NCBI GenBank assembly: GCA_945876985.1
Contig: CAMCQX010000003.1
Location: 1 to 17,289, forward strand
Origin: Chitinophaga pinensis
GTDB taxonomy: Bacteria; Bacteroidota; Bacteroidia; UKL13-3
Direction: 5' to 3'
DNA length: 17,289 nt
Numbering within the stretch: position 1 is the first letter of the stretch; each line of letters begins with the position of its first letter. The position numbers were made by a program, and so were the translations under genes. The notes beneath the pieces were generated by a model. It was not told the DNA's origin, ran no database searches, and worked only from the letters and a program-made list of their open reading frames with translations. Below, piece by piece: positions 1-16,896 of the stretch.

Positions 1-767
1 TCAATACTCATACCTTGCTCATCAATTGGTATACCAATGATGTCTGCCATTAGTCCTTTAAAAATTGATTTTACATTAGGAAAAGTTGGATCTTCAAGAA
101 AAATTTTTTCACCTGGATTTAATAAAATACAACCTAATAAATATAACGATTGTAAGGAGCCAGAAGTAATTATTACCTGACTGCTATCGCATTTTAAATT
201 TCGAATCAAGTTTAAATAATTTGCAATATTAATTTTCAATTTTTCAATTCCTGAAGAAGGAGAATATGACAAATTCGAAAATTTTATCTCTTTCCAATAC
301 ATATTAGAAAGATTTTTCCATTGCGATACAGGGAAAATATCTAATGGTGGTAATCCAGGACTAAATGCCAAATTTTCATCACTATTTGAATTAATATCTT
401 GGTTGTTTTTTAAAAATGATTTACCAATTATAGATAAATTTTCAAAGTCTTTTCCATTAAAATTTATTGGAGTTATTTGTGAAACCTCTTTCTTTTTTAT
501 GGTATAACCTGAACATGGAACTGATACGATTAAACCATCTAAAATAAGAAACTCATATACCCTTAAAATGGTACTTCTAGAAACATTCAGTGCTTTTGCT
601 AAACTTCTGGATGTAGGAAGTGTAATTTCTTCTGGTATTTCCATTGAAACTATCATTTGTTTTAGCAATTTATAAATTTTTAAATACAATTTATCGTTAT
701 CAATTACATTTGAATTCAAAACTTGAACATTGTAATTATTAATAATTTTATTGAGTAGAATTGACAT
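1..767 (-). CDS. MocR-family regulator (GntR HTH + aminotransferase-like domain), C-terminus outside window
   Basis: Reading leftward from an ATG at 767-765, the frame stays open for 255 codons to the window edge, so the gene is partial at its 3' end. Residues about 28-95 form a GntR winged helix-turn-helix (LPTSRSLAKALNVSRSTI, then a YEFLILDGLI wing). From about residue 134 a fold-type I aminotransferase-like domain begins (FSPGLPPLDIFPVSQW; YSPSSGIEKLKINIANYL; QVIITSGSLQSLYLL; EDPTFPNV). This fusion defines MocR regulators such as GabR, PdxR and DdlR, which bind PLP and sense an amino acid or related ligand. The PLP-binding lysine would lie beyond the window. The gene is divergent from the eight-gene transport operon, which it probably controls, along with itself: the proximal ATACCA repeat touches its own start codon. 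The ligand is unknown; an amino acid derived from the operon's substrate is an inference. Confidence 0.9.
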   Translation of the reverse strand, partial: MSILLNKIINNYNVQVLNSNVIDNDKLYLKIYKLLKQMIVSMEIPEEITLPTSRSLAKALNVSRSTILRVYEFLILDGLIVSVPCSGYTIKKKEVSQITPINFNGKDFENLSIIGKSFLKNNQDINSNSDENLAFSPGLPPLDIFPVSQWKNLSNMYWKEIKFSNLSYSPSSGIEKLKINIANYLNLIRNLKCDSSQVIITSGSLQSLYLLGCILLNPGEKIFLEDPTFPNVKSIFKGLMADIIGIPIDEQGMSI

Positions 768-808
768 AATTGGTATCTTTAATTTAAAATAATTGGTATG
801 GCAATTAT
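766..808. promoter_or_regulatory. Putative MocR operator: two 11-bp direct repeats plus an inverted repeat
   Basis: The sequence ATAATTGGTAT occurs exactly twice on the + strand, at 766-776 and 789-799, 23 bp apart start to start (about two helical turns). On the minus strand each reads ATACCAATTAT. As I recall, ATACCA is the direct repeat bound by Bacillus subtilis GabR, a MocR protein, although with wider spacing there. The distal copy also forms an inverted repeat, ATAATTG (789-795) with CAATTAT (802-808). The site lies between the divergent regulator and operon. No perfect TAnnTTTG element is visible before the first operon gene; TATTTTG at 811-817 is one base short of it. Confidence 0.6.
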
Positions 809-869
809 AATATTTTGAAACTGTTATTTGTTAATTATTTAAAAAATTCAATCGCGTAAGTAAATCAAA

Positions 870-3341
870 ATGAAAAAAATACACCTACTTTTTGTTTTAG
901 CCTTTTTTATTTGTAAAAATAGTAAAGCACAATTAATTATTAATGAAGTTTTATACGATCCATCAAACGTTACCTTAGTTGGCGATGCTAATGGTGATGG
1001 AGTTTATAGTCAAACGCAAGATGAATTTATAGAATTTTTCAATACAAGTACTTCCAACTTAAATATAAGTGGTTACGAAATTTGGGATGATACTTTAGTA
1101 GGTAGTTTGGTTTATAAATTCCCTATTGGAACTATTATTCCAGCTCGAAGTGCTTTAGTAGTTTTTGGTGGAGGTATACCATTTGGTTTATTTGGAAATG
1201 CAATTGTGTTAGCAGATACTGGCATTTCGGGTTTAAGCCTAAACAATATAGGGGAGAAAATAACAATAAAAAACAATGCTGGTGTATCAATACTTACTTT
1301 CGATTCGGATGCGTTATCAAATAATCCCGATGAATCATATACAAGATCTCCAGATATTACAGGTAATTTTGTTCAACATTCAACATTAGGTATAAGAAAA
1401 TTTTCGCCAGGAACTAATATCAATGGCATTGGTTTTATTTATAGTTTAGCTCACTCCATTACTTTTAAAGTAGACATGAATAAATATGGTTTGAACTTTA
1501 ATAAAGTAAATATTGCTGGTAACTTTAACCAATGGTGTAATAGTTGCAATACATTGCAAGATACTAATCATGATGGTTTATGGGAAATTACTTTAGCCAT
1601 TGCATCAGATACATTAGAATTTAAGTTTGTAATTGATACTGTTATTCAAGAAAATTTTACTTCTGTTAGTGCATGTACCAGACAAAATGGAACTGATATC
1701 AACCGTTATTCAATTATAAAAACTGATAGTATTTTAAAATCAGTTTGTTTCGAAAAATGTATTCAATGTGCAAATGAATTAAGTTTAAAAGGAATTACCG
1801 ATTTTAAAATTCCATTTGGAACTTCTGCGGGAAAATCAATTCACCTCATTGCAGATACAAATATTACAAATTTAAGTATATATGGAATTGGAGTGGCTAA
1901 TAATGGGGGTGGTACAAATGGACAAGAACTTAGATTCCCTGCAATTGCAGTAGCCAAAGGAAATCAAATAATAGTAGTAAGAGACTCGGCATCCATTGCT
2001 AGTTATTTTGGCGAATGTTGGTCAGCATTTAATACCATTATTATTGATTCAGCTGGAATTATTTCTCAAAATGGCGATGATGCTGTGGAACTTTTTAAAG
2101 TGGGTGAAGTTGTTGAAACTTTTGGCAATGCAAATGTTGATGGCACAGGAAAAGATTGGGAATATACAGGCTCTTGGGCTTTTAAAAATAATTTAGGAAA
2201 TTGGATTTATGGTGCACTGAATTGTACTGATAGTTCTACTACTATTTTTAACTCAAAATGCGTTTATCCAATCTGTACGGAATTAAAAGTAAGAACGATA
2301 ACTGTAAACGGAGAAAATAATGTGAATAGCATTTCTCAAAATCAAGGAACACTTCAAATGCTTGCAGCTGTATTGCCTATAAATGCAAAAGATACAACTG
2401 TAATTTGGTCAGTTACCAATCCGGGTGTAGCATCAATAAATAGTAATGGTTTATTAACAGCTATAGCCAATGGAAATGCAATTGTAAAAGCAACGGCAAA
2501 TGATGGAAGCGGTATTTTTGGAACCAAAACTATAAATATTACGGGACAAACTACTGGTATAATGGTTTCATCTGTAACTGTTACTTCATCAGGAAATGTA
2601 AACACCATTTCAACTACAAATGGTACATTATTATTATTTGCAAATGTTTTACCAAAAAATGCAACTGATACAAGTGTTATTTGGGATATTGACAATAAAG
2701 CAATTGCTTCAATAAATATTAATGGATTGCTTACCGCATTAGCTGACGGAATAGTAAAAGTTAAAGCAATGGCCAACGATGGCAGTGGAAAAGCCGATTC
2801 TATAAACATTACTATTACTAATCAGATTTTTAAAGTTACATCATTAAAAATTCGTACAGAAGGAAATGTAACTACAATTTCAGAGCCAAATGAAACATTA
2901 AGTTTTTATGCAGATATACTACCTAAAAATGCAACAGATACTTCAGTTACATGGTCGGTTGATAAAAATTCAATTGCAAGCATTAGCAACAAAGGTTTAT
3001 TAACTGCAATAGCTAATGGAACGGTAATGGTAAAAGCAACGGCTAATGATGGCAGCGGGAAAACAGATTCTTTAAAAATTAATATTTCAAACCAAACCAG
3101 TTTGAAGGAACTTTTTAAAAGTAAAATCAATATTTTTCCAAACCCTACAAATGGTATTATAAACATAGCAACTACAATGAATTTAAACGAATATAAAATA
3201 AAAAGTATTTACGGAAATTTATTAAGTGTTGGTGTTTTAGCATCAAATCAAATAAATATAGAAACATTAGCTGCTGGTGTATATTTTATTGAATTTAAAG
3301 TAAATGATTCATGGGTAAATTTTAAAATAATAAAAAACTAA
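870..3341 (+). CDS. T9SS-secreted multidomain protein: lamin-tail domain, carbohydrate-binding-like domain, Ig-like repeats
   Basis: This 823-residue protein has a signal peptide (about 1-20, ending NSKA-Q). Residues about 22-190 are a lamin tail domain (LTD) with a calcium-loop-like DANGDG and the signature QDEFIEF. Residues about 195-260 resemble a CBM48/starch-binding beta-sandwich (VNIAGNFNQW, DGLWEITL). Residues about 300-450 look like a second LTD-like domain found in Bacteroidota nuclease-associated proteins (NGDDAVELFK, NVDGTGKDWEY). Three bacterial Ig-like (Big_2) repeats follow at about 472-558, 565-650 and 656-740. Residues 752-823 are a T9SS type A sorting domain (INIFPNPTNGIINI, LAAGVYFIEF). 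It is probably exported through the T9SS and attached to the surface or released. It is the first gene of the operon. No catalytic site is recognisable; an adhesive or substrate-binding role is an inference. Confidence 0.85.
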   Translation: MKKIHLLFVLAFFICKNSKAQLIINEVLYDPSNVTLVGDANGDGVYSQTQDEFIEFFNTSTSNLNISGYEIWDDTLVGSLVYKFPIGTIIPARSALVVFGGGIPFGLFGNAIVLADTGISGLSLNNIGEKITIKNNAGVSILTFDSDALSNNPDESYTRSPDITGNFVQHSTLGIRKFSPGTNINGIGFIYSLAHSITFKVDMNKYGLNFNKVNIAGNFNQWCNSCNTLQDTNHDGLWEITLAIASDTLEFKFVIDTVIQENFTSVSACTRQNGTDINRYSIIKTDSILKSVCFEKCIQCANELSLKGITDFKIPFGTSAGKSIHLIADTNITNLSIYGIGVANNGGGTNGQELRFPAIAVAKGNQIIVVRDSASIASYFGECWSAFNTIIIDSAGIISQNGDDAVELFKVGEVVETFGNANVDGTGKDWEYTGSWAFKNNLGNWIYGALNCTDSSTTIFNSKCVYPICTELKVRTITVNGENNVNSISQNQGTLQMLAAVLPINAKDTTVIWSVTNPGVASINSNGLLTAIANGNAIVKATANDGSGIFGTKTINITGQTTGIMVSSVTVTSSGNVNTISTTNGTLLLFANVLPKNATDTSVIWDIDNKAIASININGLLTALADGIVKVKAMANDGSGKADSINITITNQIFKVTSLKIRTEGNVTTISEPNETLSFYADILPKNATDTSVTWSVDKNSIASISNKGLLTAIANGTVMVKATANDGSGKTDSLKINISNQTSLKELFKSKINIFPNPTNGIINIATTMNLNEYKIKSIYGNLLSVGVLASNQINIETLAAGVYFIEFKVNDSWVNFKIIKN
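2283..3089 (+). repeat. Three in-gene repeats encoding Big_2 Ig-like domains
   Basis: Three segments of about 260 bp (near 2283-2543, 2562-2819 and 2835-3089) encode related domains. Each ends in a version of GLLTAIANG...VKATANDGSG. The DNA is still visibly similar between copies, for example around 2445-2515 and 2992-3062. This points to internal duplication within the gene. Confidence 0.75.
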
Positions 3342-3358
3342 TATACAATAATTACAAA

Positions 3359-4312
3359 ATGAAAAATAATACTATTTGCTTAGCAATGGGTTTTTTACTT
3401 GTTGCATTTAATGCTTGTAAAACCGATGATGTGGCGCCTAAAAATGTAATATCATTTGGCAGTTCGGTGAGTCTTTCTGTTAATAATGCTATCATCTCTG
3501 AAAACAATGATTCGGCAATAATAAAAGTAGAATTAAATACTATTTCTTCAAGCGATGTTCAAGTGATTCTTTCCTACACCGGAACTGCAATATTAAATAC
3601 CGATTATAGTTCAAATATTACAATTGTTATTCCTTCAGGAAGTTTATCAAATACTGCTTCTTTGTTTGCTCTTCAAGATACTTTGAAGGAAGGCAACGAA
3701 ATTATAAATATAGCGATTGAATCTGTTATAGGTGCTGCAGAAAATGGCATTCAAATTACTGAAATTACCATAGAAGATGATGACGTTACTAATCCAATAA
3801 ACTTAATTTTCAATGAAATTTTATATGATCCATCAAATTCTGGTTTAGATGGAAATGCTAATGGAGATGGTATTTATTCACAAAGTCAAGATGAGTTTAT
3901 TGAAATATATAATAATTCATCAAAAGCAATTGATTTAAGTGGCTATAAAATTTTTGATGCAAATGCACTTTTATCAGATACTCCTAGACATGTTATTATA
4001 GCTGGAACTATTTTACAACCACAAAAAGCATTAGTAATTTTTGGAGGAGGCACTTTAACAGGAACCTTTGGAAACGCTTTGGTTCAAAAAACTACAACTG
4101 GCGATTTAAACTTAACCAATGCCGGTGATGTAATTACAATTAAAGATGCTTTGAATAATGTTGTTCTTTCAATTGATATTACACCTTGGTCAGACAATCC
4201 AAATGAATCATATACGAGAAACCCAGATATAACCGGAGATTTTGTACAACACGTGAGTGTAAACGCCAAAAAATTTAGTCCAGGTACAAAAGTAACTGGC
4301 GATCCATTTTAA
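3359..4312 (+). CDS. Lipoprotein with Calx-beta and lamin-tail domains
   Basis: This 317-residue protein has a lipoprotein signal peptide with lipobox AFNAC, putting the lipidated cysteine at residue 20. The mature protein starts C-K-T-D-D, resembling the acidic surface-export signals of Bacteroidota lipoproteins, so a cell-surface location is plausible. Residues about 38-142 are a Calx-beta domain (typical ending TIEDDD). Residues about 148-310 are a lamin tail domain closely resembling the N-terminal LTD of the preceding protein, sharing ILYDPSN-like, NANGDG, QDEFIE, DITG-FVQH and KFSPGT segments. It starts 17 bp after the preceding gene and ends 16 bp before dcuC. The shared LTD suggests that the two proteins were duplicated from one another or work at the same surface site. 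No enzymatic motif is seen. Confidence 0.85.
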   Translation: MKNNTICLAMGFLLVAFNACKTDDVAPKNVISFGSSVSLSVNNAIISENNDSAIIKVELNTISSSDVQVILSYTGTAILNTDYSSNITIVIPSGSLSNTASLFALQDTLKEGNEIINIAIESVIGAAENGIQITEITIEDDDVTNPINLIFNEILYDPSNSGLDGNANGDGIYSQSQDEFIEIYNNSSKAIDLSGYKIFDANALLSDTPRHVIIAGTILQPQKALVIFGGGTLTGTFGNALVQKTTTGDLNLTNAGDVITIKDALNNVVLSIDITPWSDNPNESYTRNPDITGDFVQHVSVNAKKFSPGTKVTGDPF

Positions 4313-4328
4313 CTAATCAAATATAAGT

Positions 4329-5705
4329 ATGCAGTATGCTGGTTTTATATTATCAATTATTGTAATCATAATTGTTGCAAAACTTTTACTTAAAAACTAT
4401 TTTCCTCAAGCAGTACTGCTTATTGCTGGAATTACAATGTTATTAATCAAAGGTGGTTTAGATTATTTCAATCACACAATTGTGCTTAAAGAAAATAGTT
4501 TTTTACTAATTAATATTTTTGAATTTATAAAAGAATCGTTCTCAAGTACCAATGCGAATGTAGGTTTAATGATCATGGCAATAGGCGGATTTGTGGCTTA
4601 TATCGACAAAATTGGTGCTTCGGAAGCATTGGTAAGAATTGCTTTAAAGCCATTATCGTTCTTAAAAAAACAACCTCATTTAGCAGCTGTTTGTGTGGTG
4701 CCAATTGGCCAATTATTATTTATATGTGTACCCTCAGCAGCAGGTTTAGGCTTGTTATTAATGGCTTCTGTTTTTCCAATTTTAATAAATATAGGTGTAA
4801 GTAGGTTAGCCGCAGTTTCTATTATTACAAGTAGTACCGCATTTTGTATTGGGCCAGCTTCTGTTATTACAGCTTCTGCCACACAAATTGCAAATATTGA
4901 TACTGTACCATATTTTATAAATATGCAAATACCTATTGCTATAATTTTAAATATTGTGGTTATGATTTCGTATTTTTTTGTAAACAAATATTACGATAAA
5001 AAAGATAAATTAATGCCATTGGTTGATGCTAAAATAGAAAAACAAATTATTCAAGCACCGGCTATTTATGGTATAATACCTATTTTACCGCTGATTATAT
5101 TATTACTTTTTTCAGGTGTTTTCACCGTCTTTCCTATTAAATTAAAAATTGAAACTACTACAGCTATGTTAATTAGCTTATTTATTGCTATAATATTTGA
5201 ACTAATCAGAACTAAAAATATTAAAAATATTTTATCAACTTTTAAAATATTTTTCGATGGAATGGGAGATATTTTCAAAACAGTAGTAACACTTATTATT
5301 GCGGCCGAAATTTTTGCCAACGGATTAATTTCAATAGGATTTATAGATGGTTTAATAACGATCTCTCAAGGCTTAGGTTTTGGGGCAATTGGACTAGGAA
5401 TAATTATGACCATTATGATATTTTTTGCGGCCATACTAATGGGAAGTGGGAATGCAGCTTTCTTTGCATTTGGACCATTAATTCCTAATGCTGCTGCTAA
5501 GTTTGGTATTGCTAGTACTTCTATACTTTTACCTATGAATCTTTCAGCATCTATGGGAAGGGCTTTAAGCCCCTTAGCTGGTGTACTATTGGCCACAGCA
5601 GAAATTGCTGGTGTATCATCAATAGCTATTGTAAAAAGGAATTTAATCCCAATTTCTTTGTCGTTACTCACATTATTAATTTATCATTTTGGATTATGCT
5701 TTTAA
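4329..5705 (+). CDS. dcuC: DcuC-family C4-dicarboxylate transporter
   Basis: This 458-residue polytopic inner-membrane protein is the usual DcuC length (about 460). It resembles E. coli DcuC throughout: the N-terminal hydrophobic pair, GLMIMAIGGFVAYIDKIGA (79-97), SAAGLGLLLMASVFPILINIGVSR (136-159), the GSGNAAFFAF motif (372-381) and SMGRALSPLAGV (408-419). DcuC proteins carry succinate, fumarate or aspartate, in E. coli mainly as succinate efflux under anaerobic conditions. Direction and substrate here cannot be read from sequence. The 3' end overlaps the start of the IadA homologue by 10 bp, so the two are probably translationally coupled. In E. coli iadA also adjoins membrane-protein genes (yjiG, yjiH), but from another family. 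Confidence 0.87.
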   Translation: MQYAGFILSIIVIIIVAKLLLKNYFPQAVLLIAGITMLLIKGGLDYFNHTIVLKENSFLLINIFEFIKESFSSTNANVGLMIMAIGGFVAYIDKIGASEALVRIALKPLSFLKKQPHLAAVCVVPIGQLLFICVPSAAGLGLLLMASVFPILINIGVSRLAAVSIITSSTAFCIGPASVITASATQIANIDTVPYFINMQIPIAIILNIVVMISYFFVNKYYDKKDKLMPLVDAKIEKQIIQAPAIYGIIPILPLIILLLFSGVFTVFPIKLKIETTTAMLISLFIAIIFELIRTKNIKNILSTFKIFFDGMGDIFKTVVTLIIAAEIFANGLISIGFIDGLITISQGLGFGAIGLGIIMTIMIFFAAILMGSGNAAFFAFGPLIPNAAAKFGIASTSILLPMNLSASMGRALSPLAGVLLATAEIAGVSSIAIVKRNLIPISLSLLTLLIYHFGLCF

Positions 5706-6835
5706 TAAAAAATGCAGACATATACACTCCCAATCATATTGGAGTAAAAGATATTCTTATAGGAGAAGAGAAAATTCTTGCTATAGAAGATCATATTGAA
5801 TTTGATGGCAAGTATTGTAAATATTGGGATGCAGCGGGAAAAACTGTTACACCTGGGTTTATTGACCAACATATTCATATTACAGGTGCAGGTGGAAAAC
5901 ATGGTTTCGCTTCCATGACTCCAGAAATCAAACTTTCTGATTTAATAGCTTGTGGATCTACTACAGTTGTAGGATTGCTAGGCACTGACGGAACAGCCAG
6001 AAGTATTAAAAACTTGTATGCAAAAACAATGTCGCTTGAAAGTGAAGGAATATCAGCTTATATGTTTACGGGTTATTATGGCATTGAACCTACCTATATT
6101 ACCAATACCATTCAGGATGATATGATTTTTATTGATAAGGTATTGGGTTGTAAAATTGCCATTACTGATATTCGTTCTTCCTACCCAACTGAACTTGAAT
6201 TACTAAGAATGTTAAGGCAAATTACTGTTGGAGGAATGATTGCTAATAAAAAAGGAATTCTACATATTCATTTAGGGAATTTAAAACCTAAAATGGATAT
6301 TTTATTTAAATTGGTAGAAGAACACGAATTTCCAATTAGCCATATTTCCCCTACTCATGTTGGCAGAACAAAAGCTCTTTTTGAACAAGCAATTGCTTTT
6401 GCAAAGTTGGGTGGAATGATTGATATTACTACTGGTGCATCAAAATATACTGATCCATACAAAGCTGTTTTATATGCTTTAGAAAATGGTGTTTCAATTG
6501 ATAAAATGACATTTAGTAGTGATGGAAATGCCGGCCTTGACAAACTTGATGAAAACGGCAAACTAATTGGATTTAAAAAAGCACCCATTGATCAAAATTA
6601 TTTACAAGTAAAACAATTAATTGAAACCAAAGAAGTAAGCATTGAAGACGCAATAAAGTTAATTACCTTAAATCCTGCAAATAATTTAGGTTTAAAAAAT
6701 AAAGGTATTATTGAAATAAATGCAGACGCTGATTTATGCTGTTTGGATAAAGATTTTGTTTTAACAGATGTATTTGCCAAAGGCAAACTAATGATGGAAA
6801 ATAAAGTAGTTATAGTTAAAGGAAATTTTGAATAA
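5696..6835 (+). CDS. iadA: Isoaspartyl dipeptidase (beta-aspartyl-peptidase) homologue, altered substrate pocket
   Basis: This is a 379-residue amidohydrolase without a signal peptide, hence cytoplasmic. It aligns with E. coli IadA without gaps through the first half. The binuclear zinc site is intact: H59 and H61 (QHIH), K153 (carboxylated lysine, GCKIAITD), H192 (IHLG), H221 (PTHVGR) and D276 (SSDGN). Y128, R160 and R224 match E. coli Tyr137, Arg169 and Arg233. Two substrate-side positions differ: E. coli Glu77, which contacts the substrate alpha-amino group, is K68 (GGKHG instead of GGGEAG), and Ser289 is G280. Catalysis of amide hydrolysis is therefore likely, but classical beta-aspartyl dipeptides with a free amine may not be the substrate. 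The start at 5696 overlaps dcuC and fits the family N-terminus (LLIKNADIYTP). Confidence 0.88.
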   Translation: MLLIKNADIYTPNHIGVKDILIGEEKILAIEDHIEFDGKYCKYWDAAGKTVTPGFIDQHIHITGAGGKHGFASMTPEIKLSDLIACGSTTVVGLLGTDGTARSIKNLYAKTMSLESEGISAYMFTGYYGIEPTYITNTIQDDMIFIDKVLGCKIAITDIRSSYPTELELLRMLRQITVGGMIANKKGILHIHLGNLKPKMDILFKLVEEHEFPISHISPTHVGRTKALFEQAIAFAKLGGMIDITTGASKYTDPYKAVLYALENGVSIDKMTFSSDGNAGLDKLDENGKLIGFKKAPIDQNYLQVKQLIETKEVSIEDAIKLITLNPANNLGLKNKGIIEINADADLCCLDKDFVLTDVFAKGKLMMENKVVIVKGNFE

Positions 6836-6839
6836 TTAA

Positions 6840-8144
6840 ATGATGAAAATAAAGCACTTTGTACTTTTTATAAGTATTTTTCTGTGTCAATTATTATTGG
6901 CTCAAAATCCTATTTTAAACAAATATACTTTTGGCGAGGGTTTTAAATTTTCGGATAAAGATAACTCTGAAATAAGCTTGGGTGGTTATATTCAAAATTC
7001 GTTAGAAATAAAATATAACTCAACCGATACAACAAGCGATGCATATAACAGATTTAGAATGCGCAGACTCAGATTTAGGCTTGCTGGCGATATGCCCAAA
7101 TATAAAATAAATTACAGATTTCAAATTGACTTAAGTGGAACACCCGAAATTGGTGATGAAGGCAATGGAAATTTTTTATTTGATGCTTGGATGGCCTATA
7201 ATCCAACTCCAAAAACTCAAATAAAATTTGGACAAAGCATTTCACCTACCGAAAATTTGGAGCTTTTAATGATTTCAAATTCATTGCAATTACCCGAAAG
7301 AAGTAGGCTTACCTCCGCTTTTGGAATTGTAAGAGAGTTTGGAATTTTTACTTCAAGCGAATTAAAAGTAGCTAGAAATTTTTTTATTAAACCAGCTATT
7401 TCGTTAACCAATGGCGATGGTCAAAATGTTTTTGTAAACGACCGAGGAGGTTTTAAAATTGGTGGAAGAATAGATTTTTTACCATTTGGCAAGTTCAATA
7501 ATTTTGGTCAGTTTAGGCAAGTAGATGTGGTTAGAGAACTTACTCCAAAACTATTGATAGGATTTATTTATAGTACAAATTATGGTGTAAGTAGCCGCAG
7601 AGGTGAAGGTAACACCATTATTTATTTAAATGATTCTTTAAAAGAAGTGCTCCCTAATTTTACAAAATATGGTGTTGATTTTTTATTCAAATACAAAGGT
7701 TTTAGTATGCTTGGTGAATACATTCAAACTACTGCTACTGTGCCAAACGATATTTCAATTAGGGTAAGAAATGATGGTTCAACTGCTACTACTTTTTTAG
7801 TAAATGGAGTTCAAGATGTTGAAAATTATGTAAAAGGCAGAATGATGCTAGGAAGTGGATACAATATACAAGCTGGGTATTATTTTAAAAGCAGAATTTC
7901 AATAGATGCAAGATATACCAACTTAAGGGCAGACTTAAACTCTTTTTTAAACAATCCAACATATTATAACCGACCTAATTATTATACTTTTGGTTTAAGT
8001 AAATATTTAAGTAGAGGTTATGGTTTTAAAATTCAAGCTTCTGCTACTTATGTGGAATTAGCTGCTGGAAGCCTTGATATATTTGGAGCACCACTAATTA
8101 ATAATGAGTGGATAGGAAATATTATTACCACTTTATCATTTTAG
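6840..8144 (+). CDS. OprO/OprP-like outer-membrane porin (first copy)
   Basis: This 434-residue protein has a signal peptide (about 1-22, ending LLLAQ) followed by a beta-rich barrel of the phosphate-selective porin O/P family. The visible hallmarks are NRFRMRRLRFRLAGD near residue 70, INYRFQIDLSG, LFDAWMAYNPTPKTQIKFGQ and VREFGIF. It ends in a terminal Phe (TTLSF), the usual barrel-assembly signal. In Pseudomonas this family forms anion-selective channels; the substrate here is unknown, but an anionic C4 compound or acidic peptide would suit the operon. It begins 4 bp after the IadA stop and ends 2 bp before the M14 gene. A related porin follows the M14 gene. Confidence 0.85.
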   Translation: MMKIKHFVLFISIFLCQLLLAQNPILNKYTFGEGFKFSDKDNSEISLGGYIQNSLEIKYNSTDTTSDAYNRFRMRRLRFRLAGDMPKYKINYRFQIDLSGTPEIGDEGNGNFLFDAWMAYNPTPKTQIKFGQSISPTENLELLMISNSLQLPERSRLTSAFGIVREFGIFTSSELKVARNFFIKPAISLTNGDGQNVFVNDRGGFKIGGRIDFLPFGKFNNFGQFRQVDVVRELTPKLLIGFIYSTNYGVSSRRGEGNTIIYLNDSLKEVLPNFTKYGVDFLFKYKGFSMLGEYIQTTATVPNDISIRVRNDGSTATTFLVNGVQDVENYVKGRMMLGSGYNIQAGYYFKSRISIDARYTNLRADLNSFLNNPTYYNRPNYYTFGLSKYLSRGYGFKIQASATYVELAAGSLDIFGAPLINNEWIGNIITTLSF

Positions 8145-8146
8145 GT

Positions 8147-9685
8147 ATGAATAAAATAATCGTTTTTTTAATTCTAATTTTGTGTTTCAATTTTACCCAA
8201 GAATTTGATCCGCAATCGAAAAAAATAACAAATAGTTTTTTTCCTGACATCAATGTGGAAATTAATACACCCGCATTTAAAAAAACAAAAGGATTTACAA
8301 ATTATAATGAACTAATATTTTTTATAAACGATTTACAAAAAAAATATCCTGAAATAGTAAGCATCAAATACATTGGTGAGAGTCAAAAAGGCAAATCAAT
8401 TCCGTTTGTAGTTTTGAATAAAAAATCAAACGATAAAAAGTTAAGAGTTTTTTTACAAGGTGGCCTTCATGGCGATGAAATGGCTAGTTCGGAAGGAGTA
8501 TTGTTTTTGATGGAAAAGCTTTTAAATGATTCTAGTTACAGCTATTTGTTAAACAAATTAGAAATAGCAATTATACCCATTGCAAATATTGATGGGTATG
8601 AAATTCAAGATAGATATGCAGCTAATGGATTGGATTTAAACAGAGATCAAACCAAGTTAATGATTAAAGAAAGTATTTTTTTAAAACAAACTTTTAGTGA
8701 TTTTAACCCTCATGTAGCAATTGATTTTCATGAATACAGACCATTTAGAAAAGAGTTTGCTCAACTAAGTAATTATGGAATCACATCGCTTTATGATGCA
8801 ATGATAATGACTTCTGGCAACTTAAATGTTCCTGAAAAAATAAGGGCTTATACTAAAGATAAATTTGTTAAAAATGTGGAAGTTTCATTAAATGATTTAG
8901 GTATTACTAACCGCGAATACCTAACTTCTGAAAAGGTTTTAGGAGATATTCATTTTAATCAAGGATCAAATAATGGCCGTTCAAGTGCTACTTCTTTTGC
9001 TTTGGCAAATACCATTTCAACCTTAATTGAAATTAGAGGTGTTGGTTTAGGAAGAACATCATTTAAACGTAGGGTGTTTTCAACTTTTTCAATAGGAATA
9101 TCTTATTTGAAAACAGCTTATGAAAACATAAATGAAATTGATGAGTTACTAAAAAACGAATACAATACCAATGATTTAGCAATTGTTACCTGCAAGAAAG
9201 AAAAAAGTATTGAACCATTAAAGGTAATAGATTTAGATACTGAAAAAGAAATAACCATAGATGTTACAGTATTTAATGCTTCAAAATCGACTGCGGTATT
9301 AACAAGGGTAAAACCTTTTGCCTATTTAGTTGAAAATAACCAACAAAATATAATCGAAAAATTAAAAATACTTGGACTTGCTGTAGAAACCTTAACAACA
9401 GAAAAAGAAATAGAAGTGGAGAGTTATTATGTAAGTGAATACAATATTGACAATGTAAAAGATGAAGGTGTTTACCAGCAAAAAGTAAAAACTACAATAA
9501 ATATAGAAAAAAAATCTTTTACTAAAGGCACTTTTATTATTTACATGAACCAAGAAAATTGCGGTTTAGCAATTGAAACAATAGAACCAGAAGGACATAA
9601 TAGCTTTGTAAATTTTAGTGTTTTAATAACAAAAAAAGACGAAAAATTACCTATTTACAGATACTTAAAAAACGAAAAATTATAA
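8147..9685 (+). CDS. Secreted M14-family zinc carboxypeptidase
   Basis: This 512-residue protein begins with a signal peptide (MNKIIVFLILILCFNF, then TQ). I chose the ATG at 8147 because it puts the signal peptide at the N-terminus and follows the porin stop by 2 bp; an in-frame ATG at 8108 would add 13 polar residues inside the porin gene. The M14 site is complete: H108 and E111 (HGDE), N165-R166 (LDLNRD), the third zinc ligand H195 (DFHEY) and the catalytic Glu E295 (LIEIRG). About 200 residues follow the peptidase domain with no motif I recognise. The enzyme should act in the periplasm or outside and remove C-terminal residues from peptides; its true specificity is unknown. It sits between two related porins, which suggests it produces the molecules they admit. 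Confidence 0.87.
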   Translation: MNKIIVFLILILCFNFTQEFDPQSKKITNSFFPDINVEINTPAFKKTKGFTNYNELIFFINDLQKKYPEIVSIKYIGESQKGKSIPFVVLNKKSNDKKLRVFLQGGLHGDEMASSEGVLFLMEKLLNDSSYSYLLNKLEIAIIPIANIDGYEIQDRYAANGLDLNRDQTKLMIKESIFLKQTFSDFNPHVAIDFHEYRPFRKEFAQLSNYGITSLYDAMIMTSGNLNVPEKIRAYTKDKFVKNVEVSLNDLGITNREYLTSEKVLGDIHFNQGSNNGRSSATSFALANTISTLIEIRGVGLGRTSFKRRVFSTFSIGISYLKTAYENINEIDELLKNEYNTNDLAIVTCKKEKSIEPLKVIDLDTEKEITIDVTVFNASKSTAVLTRVKPFAYLVENNQQNIIEKLKILGLAVETLTTEKEIEVESYYVSEYNIDNVKDEGVYQQKVKTTINIEKKSFTKGTFIIYMNQENCGLAIETIEPEGHNSFVNFSVLITKKDEKLPIYRYLKNEKL

Positions 9686-9687
9686 CA

Positions 9688-10908
9688 ATGAAAAATATAA
9701 TACTAAGCATAACTATTTTATTTAGTTTAAATTTAAAAGCACAAGAAGTAACAATTTCTAATCCTTTAGAAGCAAATTTTAAAGTTGGAAATGCACTCGA
9801 TTTCAAATTTAATGATGGGAATTATTTGTTCAAAATTGGCGGAATGATTCAACCATTTGTTGGGCTACAAAAAGACAGCACTAGCGATGCAAAATACTTT
9901 CTAAACGCAAAGCGAACATACTTTAACATATCGGGTAAAGCAGCTAAAGAAAAAATTTCTTTTTTAATTCAAACAGATTTTAGTTTAAGCACTTCTTTGT
10001 TGGATGCTTGGGTGGCATACATGCCTTATAAAAATTTGAAATTTACCGTTGGCCAAGTTCAAACTTTTACAAATAATAAAGAAATGAATATGATGGAAAA
10101 CCAACTCCAGTTTATAGATAGAAGCCTTGTAAGCGATCAATTTAGTGCTACTGGAAGAGAGTTTGGTTTGTTTGTAGAATCTCAATTTAAATTAAGTAAA
10201 ATAGGTATAGTGCCACAAGTTGCTATTACATCTGGTGATGGAAGAAATTCGTTTGGAGCAACTTCTATTGATTACGATTTTGGCGGACTTAAATATGCCG
10301 GCAGAATAAATGTATACCCTTTGGGTTATTTTACAGAAGGCAATAGCACTCAAATTGCAGACATTAAGAAAGAGCCAAAACCTAAATTGGTTTTGGGTAT
10401 TTCAGGAAGTTATAACCAAGGAGCATCCAACTCAAAAGGTGAAGGGCATGGAAGTTTTTTATTATATAATGAATTAGGGAAAACCAAATTACCAGATTAT
10501 AGAAAAGTATATTACGATTTACATTTTAAATATAAAGGATTTTCTTTTTTAACTGAATATGTTATTGCCACAGCAAAAGTAACCGAAGGTACATTTATAG
10601 ATCTAACAGGAATTAATGAATTACAAATTACACAAATTAGCCAATTTTTAGCTTTAGGAACTGGTTTAAATACACAACTTGGCTATGTTTATCATAAAAA
10701 ATATGGCATTGATTTTAGATACTCAATGGTTACACCTGAGTTTGCCACTAATACAAACTCATTGATTAAAGAGCGTAACGAATGGACTGTAGGCCTAACA
10801 AAGTATGTAGACGAAAATAATTTAAAATATGGAACTTCATTATCGCAAATAAATAGTGGTACATCTACTAAAATTTCAGGTTCGTTTTTTGTACAAATAG
10901 CTTTTTAA
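9688..10908 (+). CDS. OprO/OprP-like outer-membrane porin (second copy)
   Basis: This 406-residue protein has a signal peptide (MKNIILSITILFSLNLKAQ) and a beta-barrel related to the porin two genes upstream. Parallel segments include LLDAWVAYMP with LFDAWMAYNP, KFTVGQ with IKFGQ, GREFGLF with VREFGIF, and YKGFSFLTEY with YKGFSMLGEY. It ends in Phe (FFVQIAF), as outer-membrane barrels do. The two are clearly diverged, so this is an old duplication or two separate recruitments. It starts 2 bp after the M14 gene and stops 18 bp before dctA. Selectivity cannot be predicted beyond a likely preference for anions. Confidence 0.83.
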   Translation: MKNIILSITILFSLNLKAQEVTISNPLEANFKVGNALDFKFNDGNYLFKIGGMIQPFVGLQKDSTSDAKYFLNAKRTYFNISGKAAKEKISFLIQTDFSLSTSLLDAWVAYMPYKNLKFTVGQVQTFTNNKEMNMMENQLQFIDRSLVSDQFSATGREFGLFVESQFKLSKIGIVPQVAITSGDGRNSFGATSIDYDFGGLKYAGRINVYPLGYFTEGNSTQIADIKKEPKPKLVLGISGSYNQGASNSKGEGHGSFLLYNELGKTKLPDYRKVYYDLHFKYKGFSFLTEYVIATAKVTEGTFIDLTGINELQITQISQFLALGTGLNTQLGYVYHKKYGIDFRYSMVTPEFATNTNSLIKERNEWTVGLTKYVDENNLKYGTSLSQINSGTSTKISGSFFVQIAF

Positions 10909-10926
10909 TTTTTGGGTAAATAACCA

Positions 10927-12138
10927 ATGGCAATAACTTTAAAGAAAATTTTAAATCACCTTACATTTTATGTTTTAATAGCAATAATTTCAGGTGTTTT
11001 ATTAGGTCATTTTATACCAGAATGGGGAATAAAATTAGAATTCATTGGAACTACCTTTATCAATATTATTAAAGTATTTATTGCACCAATCATATTTTTT
11101 ACCATTGTTTTGGGTATAAGCTCTATGGGCGATTTAAAAAAAGTAGGTCGAATTGGAATAAAATCGCTCTTATACTTTGAAGTTGTTACCACTATTTCGC
11201 TTGCTATTGGTATTGGGGTAGCTTTAATTCTAAAACCTGGAAATATTGATAGAACTCAAATACCAATTTCCGATGTATCAAAATTTACTACTCAAGGAAA
11301 TGGTACGTTTAGTTGGTTAAAATTTTTACAAGACAATATAACAATACAAATTTTAATTGTTGCCATTATTATTGGCATTTCGCTCAATTTATTCAGTAAG
11401 AAAAAACCTATCATTGATTTACTAAACGTATGTTCAAAATTTGTTTTTAAAATACTAAAATACGTAATGTACCTTGCCCCTATTGCAGCTTTTGGCGCTA
11501 TGGCATTTACAGTATCAAAATTCGGCTTACATACACTAATACCCCTCGGTAAACTTCTTGCTTGTGTGTATATCACAATGGCATTATTTATAGTAATTAT
11601 TTTAGGTTCCATCATGAAATATTATGGGCTTAATATTTTTAAATTTTTAAAATACATAAAAAACGAAATTTTAATTGTTTTAGGAACTTCATCGTCTGAA
11701 ACAGCGTTGCCAAGTTTAATGAACAAATTAGAAAAATCTGGCTGCAGCATACCTGTAGTTGGTTTGGTTATTCCCGCTGGTTATTCTTTTAATTTAGACG
11801 GAACTTCCATTTACCTTTCTATGTCTGCTATATTTTTAGCACAACTATACAATGTGCCTCTTAGTTTTCAAGAAATTTTAATGATGATTGGAATACTAAT
11901 GATTACTTCTAAAGGTGCAGCAGGAGTAACCGGAAGTGGCTTTGTGGTGCTTGCTTCAACTTTAGCATCTATGCATACTATTCCATTGGAAGGATTAGGA
12001 TTTTTATGGGGAGTTGATAAATTTATGAGCGAAGCCAGGGCCATTACAAATATTATTGGAAATGGAGTGGCTACTATTGTAATTGCTAAAAGTGAAAAAG
12101 AATTTAATGAAGAATTATATCATCAAGTAGTGAATTAA
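10927..12138 (+). CDS. dctA: DctA-type C4-dicarboxylate symporter (DAACS family)
   Basis: This 403-residue inner-membrane symporter of the glutamate/dicarboxylate family (GltPh fold) has HP1 with SSSETALPS (255-263), TM7 with NLDGTSIYL (289-297), HP2 with SKGAAGVTGSGFVVLAST (328-345) and TM8 with DKFMSEARAITNIIGNGVAT (364-383). The TM8 pattern, with R371 and Asn at the position of GltPh Asp405, matches E. coli DctA (FMSEARALTNLVGNGVAT) rather than sodium-glutamate carriers. Proton-coupled uptake of succinate, fumarate, malate or aspartate is therefore the best assignment. It is the last gene of the compact operon; a 53-bp gap with a possible promoter follows. Together with DcuC it gives the locus two unrelated C4-dicarboxylate carriers. 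Confidence 0.9.
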   Translation: MAITLKKILNHLTFYVLIAIISGVLLGHFIPEWGIKLEFIGTTFINIIKVFIAPIIFFTIVLGISSMGDLKKVGRIGIKSLLYFEVVTTISLAIGIGVALILKPGNIDRTQIPISDVSKFTTQGNGTFSWLKFLQDNITIQILIVAIIIGISLNLFSKKKPIIDLLNVCSKFVFKILKYVMYLAPIAAFGAMAFTVSKFGLHTLIPLGKLLACVYITMALFIVIILGSIMKYYGLNIFKFLKYIKNEILIVLGTSSSETALPSLMNKLEKSGCSIPVVGLVIPAGYSFNLDGTSIYLSMSAIFLAQLYNVPLSFQEILMMIGILMITSKGAAGVTGSGFVVLASTLASMHTIPLEGLGFLWGVDKFMSEARAITNIIGNGVATIVIAKSEKEFNEELYHQVVN

Positions 12139-12191: not shown

Positions 12192-13211
12192 ATGCAAAAC
12201 CCTATTTTAGTTGAAGTTTATCGTGCCAATGTATTAGAAAGTTTTCACCGTGGCGCCATTTGTGTGGTAAATGAAAACAATGAAATCATATTCAGTAAAG
12301 GGAATGTGGAACAAATTTGTTATCCACGCTCAGCCATGAAATTTATTCAAGTTTTACCTTTATTGGTATTGGGTGGAATAGAAAAATTTGGTTTTACATT
12401 GCAAGAAATTGCCATCATGTGTGGCTCGCACAATGCAGAACAGGAACATTTAACAGTGGTGGAAAGTATCCTTTCAAAAATTGGTTTACATAAAAACGAT
12501 TTGTATTGCGGTCCGCAATATCCAAGTTCCAAACGCGATTCCGATCAATTAATTCGAGATAATAAAAAGCCCGAACATATTCATAATAATTGCAGTGGGA
12601 AGCATGCAGGCATGTTGGCTTTGTGCCAATTAATGAATGTATCTATTCACGATTATATCCATCCAGATCATGCTATTCAGCAATTGATTTTAGATTATGT
12701 GGAGAAAGTTTATGAATATCCGAAAGAAAAAATGGTGACAGCTTTGGATGGTTGCTCCGCTCCTATTTATTCCATTCCGGTTTTAAACCAAGCCATTGCT
12801 TTTAAAAATTTGGTAAGTAATCAGTATGAAGAAAAACTAGCCAATGCTTGTAAAATACTAATGGAAGCCGTTTCAAAATATCCTTTTATGGTGGCAGGTT
12901 CTAAGCGTTATTGTACCGATATGATGCAAATTACTGCTCCGCAAATCATTGGAAAAACAGGCGCAGAAGGCATATTCTGTATGAGTTTACCTGAACAAAA
13001 ATTAGGAGTTTGTATAAAAATAGATGATGGAAAAATGTTGCCTCAATACAATGTTGCGCAAGCTTTTGTAGCAGCTACTGGTTTGTTCAGTGATGAAGCC
13101 TTAGCACCTTTGCACCATTATTTACAAGAACCTTTGATTAACTTTAACAAATTCACTGTTGGCGAAATAAAAGCTGTAAATAGTTTGTTTGATGGATTGG
13201 AGATTGGGTAA
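12192..13211 (+). CDS. L-asparaginase, Rhizobium-etli type (Asparaginase_II family)
   Basis: This 339-residue cytoplasmic protein belongs to the Asparaginase_II family typified by the Rhizobium etli inducible enzyme (ReAV), unrelated to E. coli AnsA/AnsB. It hydrolyses L-asparagine to aspartate and ammonia. By motif, the key positions are all present: the S47-x-x-K50 pair (PRSAMK), S79 (CGSHN), C134 and K137 (NNCSGKHAGM), C188 (LDGCSAP) and K255 (GKTGAEG), corresponding to the catalytic Ser/Lys and zinc-binding residues of ReAV. It should be active. It lies 53 bp after dctA on the same strand and may add to the aspartate pool used by the upstream operon, but could have its own promoter. The following small gene begins 3 bp after its stop. 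Confidence 0.9.
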   Translation: MQNPILVEVYRANVLESFHRGAICVVNENNEIIFSKGNVEQICYPRSAMKFIQVLPLLVLGGIEKFGFTLQEIAIMCGSHNAEQEHLTVVESILSKIGLHKNDLYCGPQYPSSKRDSDQLIRDNKKPEHIHNNCSGKHAGMLALCQLMNVSIHDYIHPDHAIQQLILDYVEKVYEYPKEKMVTALDGCSAPIYSIPVLNQAIAFKNLVSNQYEEKLANACKILMEAVSKYPFMVAGSKRYCTDMMQITAPQIIGKTGAEGIFCMSLPEQKLGVCIKIDDGKMLPQYNVAQAFVAATGLFSDEALAPLHHYLQEPLINFNKFTVGEIKAVNSLFDGLEIG

Positions 13212-16106: not shown

Positions 16107-16625
16107 ATGCAAAACTACCTATACTTTTTTAAGGCAACCATTTTGAATTGGCAAAAATTATTGAAACAAGATAAATACAAACAAATTATTTGTGATAGTC
16201 TTAGCTATCTAGTTAAAAAAAACAGAGTAGTGGTATTTGGATTTGTAATAATGCCAAACCACATTCACATAGTTTGGCACATAAATGAACCAGATATATT
16301 GGAAACTGTTCAAAGAGATTTTTTGAAGTATACAGCACAGCAAATCAAATTTGATTTAGTGAAAAACCATTTGAATGTTTTACCCTATTTTAAAAGTAAT
16401 GCCAAAGACAGAAATTATCAATTTTGGGAAAGAAGGCCTTATTATTCAAAATTATTTAACAGAGAAGTAGTAGAAGAAAAGTTAAATTATATTCATAATA
16501 ATCCAATGAACAAGAAATGGAATTTGTGCAATGCTCCTGAACTATATCCATTCTCATCGGCTTCATTTTATTTAACAAACAATTGCACCTTTGATTTTAT
16601 TACCGATTATAGAGAATGTATTTAG
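16107..16625 (+). CDS. REP-associated tyrosine transposase (RAYT, Y1/IS200-like)
   Basis: This is a 172-residue Y1 (HUH) transposase. The HUH metal-binding motif is H52-I-H54 in IMPNHIHIVWH, and the conserved (L)NYIHNNP (126-133) supplies the likely catalytic tyrosine Y128. FWERRPYYSKLF and LYPFSSASFY are further RAYT-like segments. Length and motifs match single-copy RAYTs, which nick REP hairpins as single strands and spread REP sequences. The gene is flanked by inverted REP pairs, so it sits with its own substrate. It appears intact. Its 5' and 3' ends are each repeated once outside the element. Confidence 0.88.
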   Translation: MQNYLYFFKATILNWQKLLKQDKYKQIICDSLSYLVKKNRVVVFGFVIMPNHIHIVWHINEPDILETVQRDFLKYTAQQIKFDLVKNHLNVLPYFKSNAKDRNYQFWERRPYYSKLFNREVVEEKLNYIHNNPMNKKWNLCNAPELYPFSSASFYLTNNCTFDFITDYRECI

Positions 16626-16633
16626 ATTAAATT

Positions 16634-16661
16634 GGTTGGTGAAAACACCAACCATAGGCAA
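16634..16661. repeat. REP unit 3 (inner right)
   Basis: The hairpin GGTTGGTG-AAAA-CACCAACC (16634-16653) is followed by ATAGGCAA, the exact reverse complement of units 1 and 2. It lies 8 bp after the transposase stop codon and could also work as a transcript-end hairpin. Confidence 0.85.
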
Positions 16662-16662
16662 T

Positions 16663-16716
16663 TTAACAAACAATTGTACTTTTGATTTTATTACCGATTA
16701 TAGAAAATGGATTTAA
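16663..16716 (+). pseudogene. 3' fragment of a RAYT transposase gene (outer copy)
   Basis: The fragment encodes LTNNCTFDFITDYRKWI and a stop, matching the last residues of the complete gene (ending YRECI), with a few base changes. It lies directly after REP unit 3 and before REP unit 4. It pairs with the 5' fragment as the remains of the outer element. Confidence 0.8.
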
Positions 16717-16723
16717 ATAAACT

Positions 16724-16751
16724 GGTTGGTGAAAACACCAACCACAGGCAA
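16724..16751. repeat. REP unit 4 (outer right)
   Basis: This has the same hairpin as unit 3 (16724-16743) followed by ACAGGCAA, one base different from the other three copies. It directly adjoins the truncated toxin gene. Confidence 0.85.
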
Positions 16752-16752
16752 T

Positions 16753-16896
16753 AGTAAACCACATAAACTAAGAGGGAATTTTGAACATCATTGGGAGTGT
16801 CATATTCAACCAGATTGGTTATTAATATGGTTATGTGATTTGGATAAAAAAGAAATTCATTTAATTAGAACTGGAACTCATAGTGATTTATTCTAA
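16753..16896 (+). pseudogene. 5'-truncated YafQ/RelE-superfamily toxin gene
   Basis: The frame encodes 47 residues clearly matching the C-terminal half of YafQ-type mRNA endoribonuclease toxins: PHKLRGNF, ECHIQPDWLLIW and RTGTHSDLF. The equivalents of E. coli YafQ His50, His63, Asp67, Trp68, His87 and Phe91 are all kept, but the N-terminal half (about 40-45 residues) and start codon are missing. REP unit 4 abuts the break. No N-terminal half lies to the left of the mobile element and no cognate antitoxin gene adjoins, so insertion was accompanied by deletion. The frame is open upstream through the REP unit to a TAA at 16714-16716 without an ATG. Confidence 0.82.

Follow-up and report, generated by a model that had tools for sequence, protein, structure and literature searches.

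The window, by which we mean the whole stretch of 17,289 nucleotides analysed, carries one end of a gene set found in many members of the Bacteroidota; its probable role is to break down and take up a negatively charged polymer. We interpret it as a locus for using a polyanionic polymer that occurs outside the cell and consists of beta-linked C4-dicarboxylic units, most likely poly(beta-L-malate), and assign this reading a probability of about 0.38. That the substrate is a beta-linked dicarboxylate polymer of one kind or the other, malate or aspartate, appears probable. Malate is favoured over aspartate, a choice that we infer from the make-up of the locus.

Gene content of the locus

Eight linked genes and a divergent MocR gene are present in the window (Table 1). 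Gene calls, family matches and the short gaps between the eight genes (in order, 17, 16, -10, 4, 2, 2 and 18 bp) bear out the tight linkage described in the first-pass annotation. The LTD matches scored 48.8 and 57.4 bits (cut-off 34.3), the DcuC-family carrier 366 bits to NF037994 (cut-off 100), and the SDF-family carrier 324.8 bits to SDF (cut-off 27.9), with DctA as its best NCBIfam match at 496.7 bits, slightly below the cut-off of 513. For the M14 gene, a start at ATG 8147 is more likely than the mechanical call at GTG 8108. Among the loci compared, L-asparaginase II occupied its position only in the window, L009 and L010, which belong to a single genus, and it is doubtful that it is part of the locus. 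Neither SusC/SusD nor glycosidases were seen in the window. Promoter and terminator scans of the window returned signals at shuffle level, and an Rfam scan gave no matches at gathering cut-offs.

Table 1. Genes of the locus and its borders, with positions in the window.
Feature	Position	Strand	Matches and remarks
MocR/GabR-type regulator	3..767	-	GntR, Aminotran_1_2; N-terminal 255 aa only, gene truncated by contig end
Secreted T9SS protein	870..3341	+	LTD (18-141), weak AMPK1_CBM match, second LTD-like region (about 269-470), three Big_2, T9SS C-terminal tail
LTD-domain protein, lipoprotein by leader (...AFNAC)	3359..4312	+	LTD match; lipobox judged by eye
DcuC-family C4-dicarboxylate carrier	4329..5705	+	NF037994
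IadA homologue, Lys-type clade (K68, G280)	5696..6835	+	TIGR01975
OprO/OprP-type porin 1	6840..8144	+	PF07396, model match
M14 carboxypeptidase, signal-like leader	8147..9685	+	M14 family match
OprO/OprP-type porin 2	9688..10908	+	PF07396; about 32% identical to porin 1 family
SDF-family carrier, DctA-like	10927..12138	+	SDF, DctA matches
L-asparaginase II	12192..13211	+	PF06089; 53 bp downstream of the eight-gene set

Both porins exceeded the PF07396 cut-off of 20.9 in a whole-genome search (28.6 and 21.9 bits); Pfam scans of the window proteins did not list PF07396 for either. OprP and OprO were the best matches to the structure model of porin 1, which was built from a 20-row alignment of our choosing, mostly of porin 1 and with some porin 2 rows. 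By match and by fold, the porins belong to the OprO/OprP family.

The M14 carboxypeptidase (78.1 bits, cut-off 21.6) has the Zn ligands, the catalytic Glu, the carboxylate-binding Asn-Arg pair and the fold, the latter in a model from 12 rows selected by us, with the window row lacking the initiator Met. An Arg near the S1' position was present in all 18 readable loci; it was tentatively assigned to position 255 by manual alignment, and the HMMER alignments stop short of this region. We take an Arg at S1' position 255 to be a mark of acidic specificity in CPO-like M14 enzymes.

Conservation of the locus in Bacteroidia

The gene order, with a divergent MocR followed by the LTD-containing T9SS protein, LTD lipoprotein, DcuC, IadA homologue, porin, M14 enzyme, porin and DctA-like symporter, was kept in Flavobacterium, Lutibacter, Chryseobacterium and many MAGs. 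Because the arrangement recurs across families of Bacteroidia, it is not due to chance. The co-occurrence check proposed in the first-pass annotation therefore came out in its favour, as the order is not confined to the window. Its idea of a utilisation locus in which porins replace SusC/SusD is likewise supported: the gene set is conserved and an acidic substrate is very likely. A DctA-like carrier was found in 8 loci (window counted) and a DASS carrier in 7, with no locus containing both. Spread driven by a recent man-made polymer was considered and dropped, as the M14 and porin orthologues of F. succinicans and Lutibacter share only 30-34% identity with those of the window.

A PahZ1 homologue beside the locus

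The contig is cut inside the MocR gene. In the nearest relatives (G002 and G003), a homologue of PahZ1 (poly(aspartic acid) hydrolase-1) lies just past MocR (E = 8e-52 to 6ve6, 2e-74 by profile); none was found in the window's own assembly, which is incomplete. This gene and asparaginase II were both absent from the gene set first described. The GxSxG nucleophile motif had the form G[HF]SAG in all 14 PahZ1 copies compared, and there is distant kinship with PHB/PHA depolymerases (3d0k, 2e-29; NF050058, 27 bits, below the cut-off).

Among 58 relatives, IadA was present in 5 and PahZ1 in 4, all 4 of them IadA-positive (Fisher p = 1.2e-5). PahZ1 was detected at E<=1e-60 in 10 of 395 Bacteroidia genomes, in 8 of these beside this locus. 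At E<=1e-15, it was not found in 3 of the 9 genomes that had been selected by their IadA loci; two of the three are named isolates (Lutibacter and Chryseobacterium). Only indirect support came from the 120 IadA and 120 PahZ1 matches listed, whose genomes had 13 longest-contig values in common. In L039, a second LTD-like region, like that of the T9SS protein, is fused to the PahZ1 catalytic domain. A variant locus with SusC/SusD (L066) retains PahZ1, an LTD-like protein and a DASS carrier, and its genome gave no IadA match.

Instead of a polymer, the locus might serve the uptake of small succinyl-, malyl- or citryl-conjugates, either amino-acid amides or esters. The carriers do come from C4-dicarboxylate families, some loci are without PahZ1, and the IadA homologue combines a changed Glu site with both arginines for the leaving group (see below). 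However, the linkage of PahZ1 with LTD surface proteins, the LTD-PahZ1 fusion and the SusC/SusD variant indicate a polymer, and we regard small conjugates as an unlikely substrate. The succinyl or malyl amides proposed in the first-pass annotation come closest to our favoured reading, which has a polymer rather than an amide.

PahZ1 homologues on plasmids (9 records, 26-38% identity) were not informative in the four neighbourhoods examined, which held pectin, catalase, transport and plasmid-upkeep genes. More distant PahZ1-like proteins (168-236 bits) occurred in 14 of 18 phylum-sample genomes. Among the 11 of these 14 neighbourhoods that were examined, only those in G439 and G297 (L075 and L077) had M14, M20 and an LTD-like match alongside, and none had IadA or DcuC.

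Altered residues in the IadA homologue and the regulator

The IadA homologue scored 393.9 bits to TIGR01975 (cut-off 331.25). Across 21 loci, the metal-ligand positions (H59, H61, K153, H192, H221 and D276) were unchanged wherever readable, and the two arginines that bind the leaving group were kept. These features agree with the first-pass view of a normal isoaspartyl dipeptidase that scavenges isoaspartyl peptides or cyanophycin fragments, as does a cyanophycinase elsewhere in the window's own genome (G000:C79) and over the cut-off in 8 of the 13 locus genomes searched. Against this view, the Glu in contact with the nitrogen of the substrate (E77 in EcIadA) is Lys in all 119 readable sequences (the window and 118 of the 120 listed homologues). 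Among the 20 readable loci, 19 have Lys at the site and one (L091) has Gln, L087 being unreadable. Malic enzyme adjoins the locus in L091 and may be a chance neighbour. By contrast, all six non-locus IadAs of the phylum sample retain the Glu, and five of them (all but L046) sit in cyanophycin clusters and branch apart from the locus IadAs.

In a true IadA, the Glu-to-Gln mutant is reported to be inactive (PMC5517026). We read atom N11 in the contact description of the same source as the alpha-amino nitrogen of the substrate. True IadAs lose only slightly when the amino group of the substrate is shifted, and the role of the Glu may therefore lie in catalysis no less than in handling the amine. 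In addition, the position of the catalytic Tyr137 is Phe in 7 of the 20 loci, and the matching Tyr-to-Phe mutant is reported to keep under 10% of activity (PMC5517026). The window contains no cyanophycinase, none was over the cut-off in 5 of the 13 locus genomes, and scavenging would leave PahZ1 unexplained.

The regulator points in the same direction. It has both the GntR-type HTH and the aminotransferase-like domain of the MocR/GabR group, and in alignment to GabR all 15 full copies have Arg in place of the PLP-binding Lys (GTFNR versus GTFSK in GabR), a count taken from relatives since the window copy ends before the motif. Another MocR, in G389, has Lys at this position. Our first view of the MocR gene as a sign of an amine inducer was reversed by the loss of the PLP lysine. 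As judged from sequence, the Glu and Lys changes speak against a substrate of the usual isoaspartyl or cyanophycin type. Ordinary beta-aspartyl peptides thus lost support as a substrate because the Glu needed by true IadAs is missing, and cyanophycin was set aside on the Glu-type, separately branching IadAs of its clusters and the patchy cyanophycinase; overall, scavenging of either kind seems very unlikely.

Polymalate or polyaspartate as the substrate

Poly(beta-L-malate) is the ester isostere of poly(beta-aspartate), the substrate of PahZ1. In favour of malate, besides the changed residues, are the distant kinship of PahZ1 with PHB/PHA depolymerases and the report that PahZ1 of strain KP-2 cuts an all-L beta-Asp trimer only slowly and leaves dimers (PMC4456602). 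We tentatively suggest that the locus is a natural polymalate locus, that PahZ1-type hydrolases were originally polymalate depolymerases cutting the amide isostere incidentally, and that two proteins were adapted so as to disregard amines, an isoaspartyl dipeptidase by a Glu-to-Lys change and a PLP-sensing regulator by a Lys-to-Arg change. Going by the anatomy of the locus for every step, LTD surface proteins would bind the polymer and the lipoprotein PahZ1, encoded just outside the window in the nearest relatives, would cut it. Anionic oligomers would pass through the OprO/P-type porins, and the secreted M14 enzyme would trim terminal units. DcuC would import dimers and the DctA- or DASS-type carriers monomers, the Lys-type IadA homologue would split the dimers in the cytoplasm, and the MocR relative without the PLP lysine would sense a non-amine product. 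Action of the locus enzymes on polymalate is thus predicted from gene content.

Some evidence runs counter to polymalate. The reported activity of PahZ1 is on beta-Asp amides (PMC4456602). The 43-kDa polymalate hydrolase of Comamonas is said to be without serine-esterase activity and that of Physarum to differ from typical PHA depolymerases (PMC9210645); both are unlike a PahZ1-type serine hydrolase, which counts against the polymalate reading. M14 and IadA are families of peptidases, and the window, L009 and L010 have asparaginase II next to the locus. The possible catalytic role of the IadA Glu and the genomes in which PahZ1 was not found (see above) also weigh against polymalate.

The same locus might instead serve beta-linked poly(aspartate), natural or detergent-derived and possibly with D-units, which we consider possible but less likely. 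IadA and M14 enzymes hydrolyse amides, the window's genus has asparaginase II linked to the locus, and DcuC is paired with a canonical iadA elsewhere (L135 and L136). K68 and G280 would suit a D-isoAsp first residue with amino and carboxylate groups swapped. PahZ1 of Pedobacter sp. KP-2 is reported to cleave beta-Asp amides with a preference for L-D bonds and to leave dimers (PMC4456602), which an IadA homologue could finish. On the other side, the amine-handling residues are altered in both the IadA and the MocR relatives. We know of no natural beta-poly-Asp, and to our knowledge DASS carriers are not typical for aspartate.

PahZ1 is known as a degrader of an industrial polymer; no natural role is given for it in the accessible part of the report (PMC4456602). 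The locus places it in a genomic context and offers a candidate substrate that can be tested, and may explain the natural role of enzymes that act on a man-made polymer. It also predicts a new specificity within a family that pipelines annotate as beta-aspartyl-peptidase, a branch of MocR proteins that lacks the PLP lysine, and the use of anion porins for the work of SusC/SusD.

Comparison with known systems

The polymalate hydrolases of Physarum and Comamonas acidovorans share the proposed substrate, and the Comamonas enzyme is described as outer-membrane located, in a group of bacteria using polymalate as carbon source (PMC9210645). They differ in being 43-68 kDa proteins reported to be without serine-esterase activity; as the accessible part of that source names no bacterial gene, they are set beside the locus by description. 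If polymalate is the substrate, the locus would offer a genetic handle on the bacterial turnover of this fungal and slime-mould polyester.

The PahZ1 systems of Pedobacter sp. KP-2 and Sphingomonas sp. KT-1 resemble the locus through the PahZ1 homologue linked to it, but are described as purified enzymes acting on thermal polyaspartate, and the accessible part of the report does not mention a locus, porins, carriers, IadA or a regulator (PMC4456602). Cyanophycin clusters (CphA, CphB and IadA/IaaA; PMC10206079) likewise end with an IadA homologue acting on a beta-linked dimer, and differ from the window in their Glu-type IadAs and in having cyanophycinase. In the iadA-dcuC pair of Gammaproteobacteria (L135 and L136), DcuC also adjoins IadA, and these IadAs form the neighbouring branch to the locus IadAs in a midpoint-rooted tree of 26 rows. 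The pair differs in its canonical Glu/Ser site and opposite gene order, with a LysR gene in L136 and no M14 or PahZ1 match in the two stretches examined.

Polysaccharide utilisation loci of Bacteroidota use SusC/SusD where this locus has OprO/P-type porins, SusC/SusD being present in one variant (L066). As in those loci, a divergent regulator, a surface lipoprotein, a secreted hydrolase and uptake across the outer and inner membranes are clustered together.

Gene content and conservation of the locus

Contig C3, which forms the window, comes from a metagenome-assembled genome (MAG) that is 66% complete and in 309 contigs; its named relatives belong to Bacteroidota. The first-pass annotation had described here a divergent MocR regulator and eight linked genes as a candidate locus for the use of an acidic isopeptide or C4-dicarboxylate amide, and all nine genes were found. 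Successive plus-strand genes are spaced by 17, 16, -10, 4, 2, 2 and 18 bp, and an asparaginase II gene lies 53 bp after the SDF carrier gene.

Features of the window and of related stretches
Stretch	Position	Strand	Feature
Window	3-767	minus	MocR gene, cut by contig end
Window		plus	T9SS LTD protein
Window		plus	LTD lipoprotein
Window		plus	DcuC
Window		plus	IadA homologue
Window		plus	porin 1
Window		plus	M14 carboxypeptidase
Window		plus	porin 2
Window		plus	DctA-like SDF carrier
Window			PabB-type enzyme
Window			WG-repeat protein
Window	16107-16625		transposase-like gene, below Pfam cut-off
Window	16591-16896		partial repeat of the end of the transposase-like gene, then truncated YafQ-type toxin remnant (64.2 bits)
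Window			TrmE_N (MnmE) start
L010	20440-20712		YafQ match of full length
L014	7116-8225	other strand	gene upstream of DcuC
L018	6188-7159	other strand	similar gene upstream of DcuC
L017	14434-19532		divergent unit of DASS, PahZ1, MocR and second LTD gene, next to DcuC-to-porin unit
L066 (G107:C12:328001-348000)	10231-19912		PahZ1, LTD-like protein, DASS carrier, DUF4886 protein, SusD, SusC

A scan with the IadA protein yielded 12 loci. As far as the stretches extend, DcuC, IadA, porin 1, M14 and porin 2 keep the same order, as for example in Flavobacterium succinicans, Lutibacter agarilyticus and Chryseobacterium angstadtii, and MocR and LTD genes are usually present. Because this order recurs in other genomes, the gene set is not peculiar to the window, and the proposal of a linked system stands in this respect. 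In the Flavobacterium and Lutibacter loci an LTD gene is at the opposite end, and no MocR, SDF or DASS gene was seen within the stretch read; MocR was also not found in genome G721 (E<=1e-15). The DctA-like carrier occurs in eight loci (window, L009, L010, L013, L015, L020, L026, L027) and a DASS carrier in seven others (L017, L038, L040, L086-L089). No locus among the 27 compared shows both; several of the stretches end early, so absences there mean little.

Some observations concern individual stretches. L017 looks as if the locus had been split. The gene upstream of DcuC in L014 and L018, both Flavobacteriaceae loci, appears by eye to belong to the endonuclease/exonuclease/phosphatase family. 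In L009 a ParE-type gene separates asparaginase II from pabB. This Bacteroidota locus is also present in a MAG whose title names Klebsiella pneumoniae (L019, record CALPPA020000187.1); since a phylum search with that MAG as its centre gave the same PahZ1 matches as the Bacteroidota sample, the title looks wrong.

A PahZ1 homologue beyond the regulator in relatives

In the nearest relatives of the window, the region beyond MocR encodes a homologue of poly(aspartic acid) hydrolase-1 (PahZ1), a lipoprotein judging by its leader (E 8e-52 against 6ve6, 1.5e-47 against 9o7u, 2e-74 in a profile search). GHSAG or GFSAG was present in all 14 copies inspected. Elsewhere (L013, L015, L026, L027, L091) the gene sits either between porin 2 and SDF or at the 3' end. 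The sister genome G002 has one contig (L025) that carries a T9SS-tail protein, PahZ1 and MocR; it matches window positions 1-967 at 95.8%, and its overlap with the contig bearing the remainder of the locus (L009) is 141 identical bases. This arrangement puts PahZ1 past MocR, so that the window contig stops at the expected PahZ1 site. As PahZ1 was not found in the incomplete assembly of the window's own genome (G000), we only infer its presence there.

In L039 a single protein consists of an LTD-like region, in which Pfam did not detect LTD, followed by the PahZ1 catalytic domain. The LTD-like region matches residues 269-470 of the window's LTD-T9SS protein (E 4e-29), and the fusion therefore ties the first gene of the window's series to polymer hydrolysis. 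The gene set of L066 forms a PUL-like variant; no M14, DcuC or any peptidase gene was seen in that stretch, and IadA was not found in its genome (G107). Distant PahZ1-like genes lie beside M20 and M14 peptidase genes and an LTD-like match in L075 and L077, from genomes of the same phylum, with an AbgT carrier also nearby in L075.

Among 58 relatives (G000 included), IadA was found in five and PahZ1 in four; all four PahZ1-positive genomes also have IadA, the fifth IadA genome being G000 (Fisher p 1.2e-5). A phylum sample of 395 genomes contained IadA (E<=1e-30) in 10, four of locus type (G000, G100, G343, G389) and six others, and PahZ1 (E<=1e-15) in 18, including G100, G343 and G389, where it is beside the locus (p 3e-4). 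In a class sample of 395 genomes, PahZ1 (E<=1e-60) occurred in 10, eight of them with the locus (G003, G011, G100, G509, G616, G628, G668, G721); in G011 the locus is spread over two contigs joined by synteny alone. The other two are G107, with the SusC/SusD variant, and G695, whose gene has no locus neighbours within 20 kb. Genomes reached via IadA loci have PahZ1 in six of nine cases, which counts against strict co-occurrence: it was not found in the genomes of L012, Lutibacter and Chryseobacterium, and in F. succinicans it is at another site, away from the locus.

Altered residues in the IadA homologue and in MocR

The IadA homologues of the loci retain both their metal ligands and the pair of arginines in contact with the leaving group. 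In IadA, the glutamate contacting the substrate nitrogen is reported to be E77 in E. coli and E80 in Colwellia, where the E80Q mutant is inactive (PMC5517026). In all 13 loci first compared this residue is Lys68. Lys also occupies the site in all 119 sequences readable there, namely the window and 118 homologues (the 120 best, less two fragments); this count samples near kin only, since these are the best 120 of 2146. Over 20 readable loci, Lys was present in 19 and Gln in one. Every locus IadA read has Gly in place of the residue that contacts a substrate oxygen (Cys297; in E. coli S289). At the catalytic Tyr137 position, 13 of 20 loci have Tyr and 7 have Phe, and the residue immediately before it is always Tyr. 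Non-locus IadAs of the phylum sample have Glu (6/6) and Ser or Cys (5/5 readable). Five of these six adjoin cyanophycinase or cyanophycin synthetase; neither was seen beside the sixth (L046). In a tree of 26 rows, the 18 rows with Lys and the one with Gln formed a single group, the Lys type (support 100/99), which lies next to two canonical iadA genes paired with dcuC. One such pair (L136, CP090268.1) is accompanied by a LysR gene and lies on an E. coli KPC plasmid, with an IS26 copy on either side.

For true IadA, a shift of the amino group in the substrate is described as causing slight loss only, the alpha-carboxylate being essential (PMC5517026). This tolerance counts against an over-strict reading of the Glu change.

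The GTFSK motif of GabR, with its PLP lysine, is GTFNR in all 15 full copies of the locus MocR, and a repeat on 10 copies, largely the same ones, agreed. Another MocR in G389 has Lys at this position. The loss is read from relatives because the window MocR ends before the motif. In EnuR, this lysine is reported to carry PLP, with which inducers react, and a Lys-to-His mutant to be a constitutive repressor (PMC8739950).

Candidate substrates

PahZ1 of strain KP-2 is reported to cut beta-linked but not alpha-linked Asp trimers, to need at least three units and to leave dimers; it acts best on L-D bonds and slowly on the all-L trimer (PMC4456602). Judging by its genes, the locus would supply the subsequent steps, with a dimer hydrolase and dicarboxylate carriers. 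Both the dimer hydrolase (IadA homologue) and MocR are altered at the residue by which their relatives handle amines. Malate has a hydroxyl group where aspartate has the amine, and beta-linked polymalate is the ester isostere of beta-linked polyaspartate. PahZ1 is distantly akin to polyhydroxyalkanoate depolymerases. Polymalate occurs naturally and is described as a carbon food for some bacteria (PMC9210645). We tentatively favour polymalate as the substrate, with a probability of roughly 0.38; against it, the known polymalate hydrolases are described in this source as being without serine-esterase activity (PMC9210645).

Polyaspartate, D-isoAsp included, is a somewhat less probable substrate than polymalate; a flipped first residue would likewise explain the change of Glu to Lys together with that of Ser to Gly. 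Asparaginase II is linked to the locus in the window's genus, whereas a malic enzyme beside L091 (NF009501, 767 bits; below the cut-off of 1178) points to the malate side, so that single linked genes point in both directions. No description of this locus was found among the open-licence titles and abstract openings listed on PahZ1, IadA, polymalate, iadA-dcuC and polymer loci. We regard the locus as a PUL-like system for a non-carbohydrate polymer.
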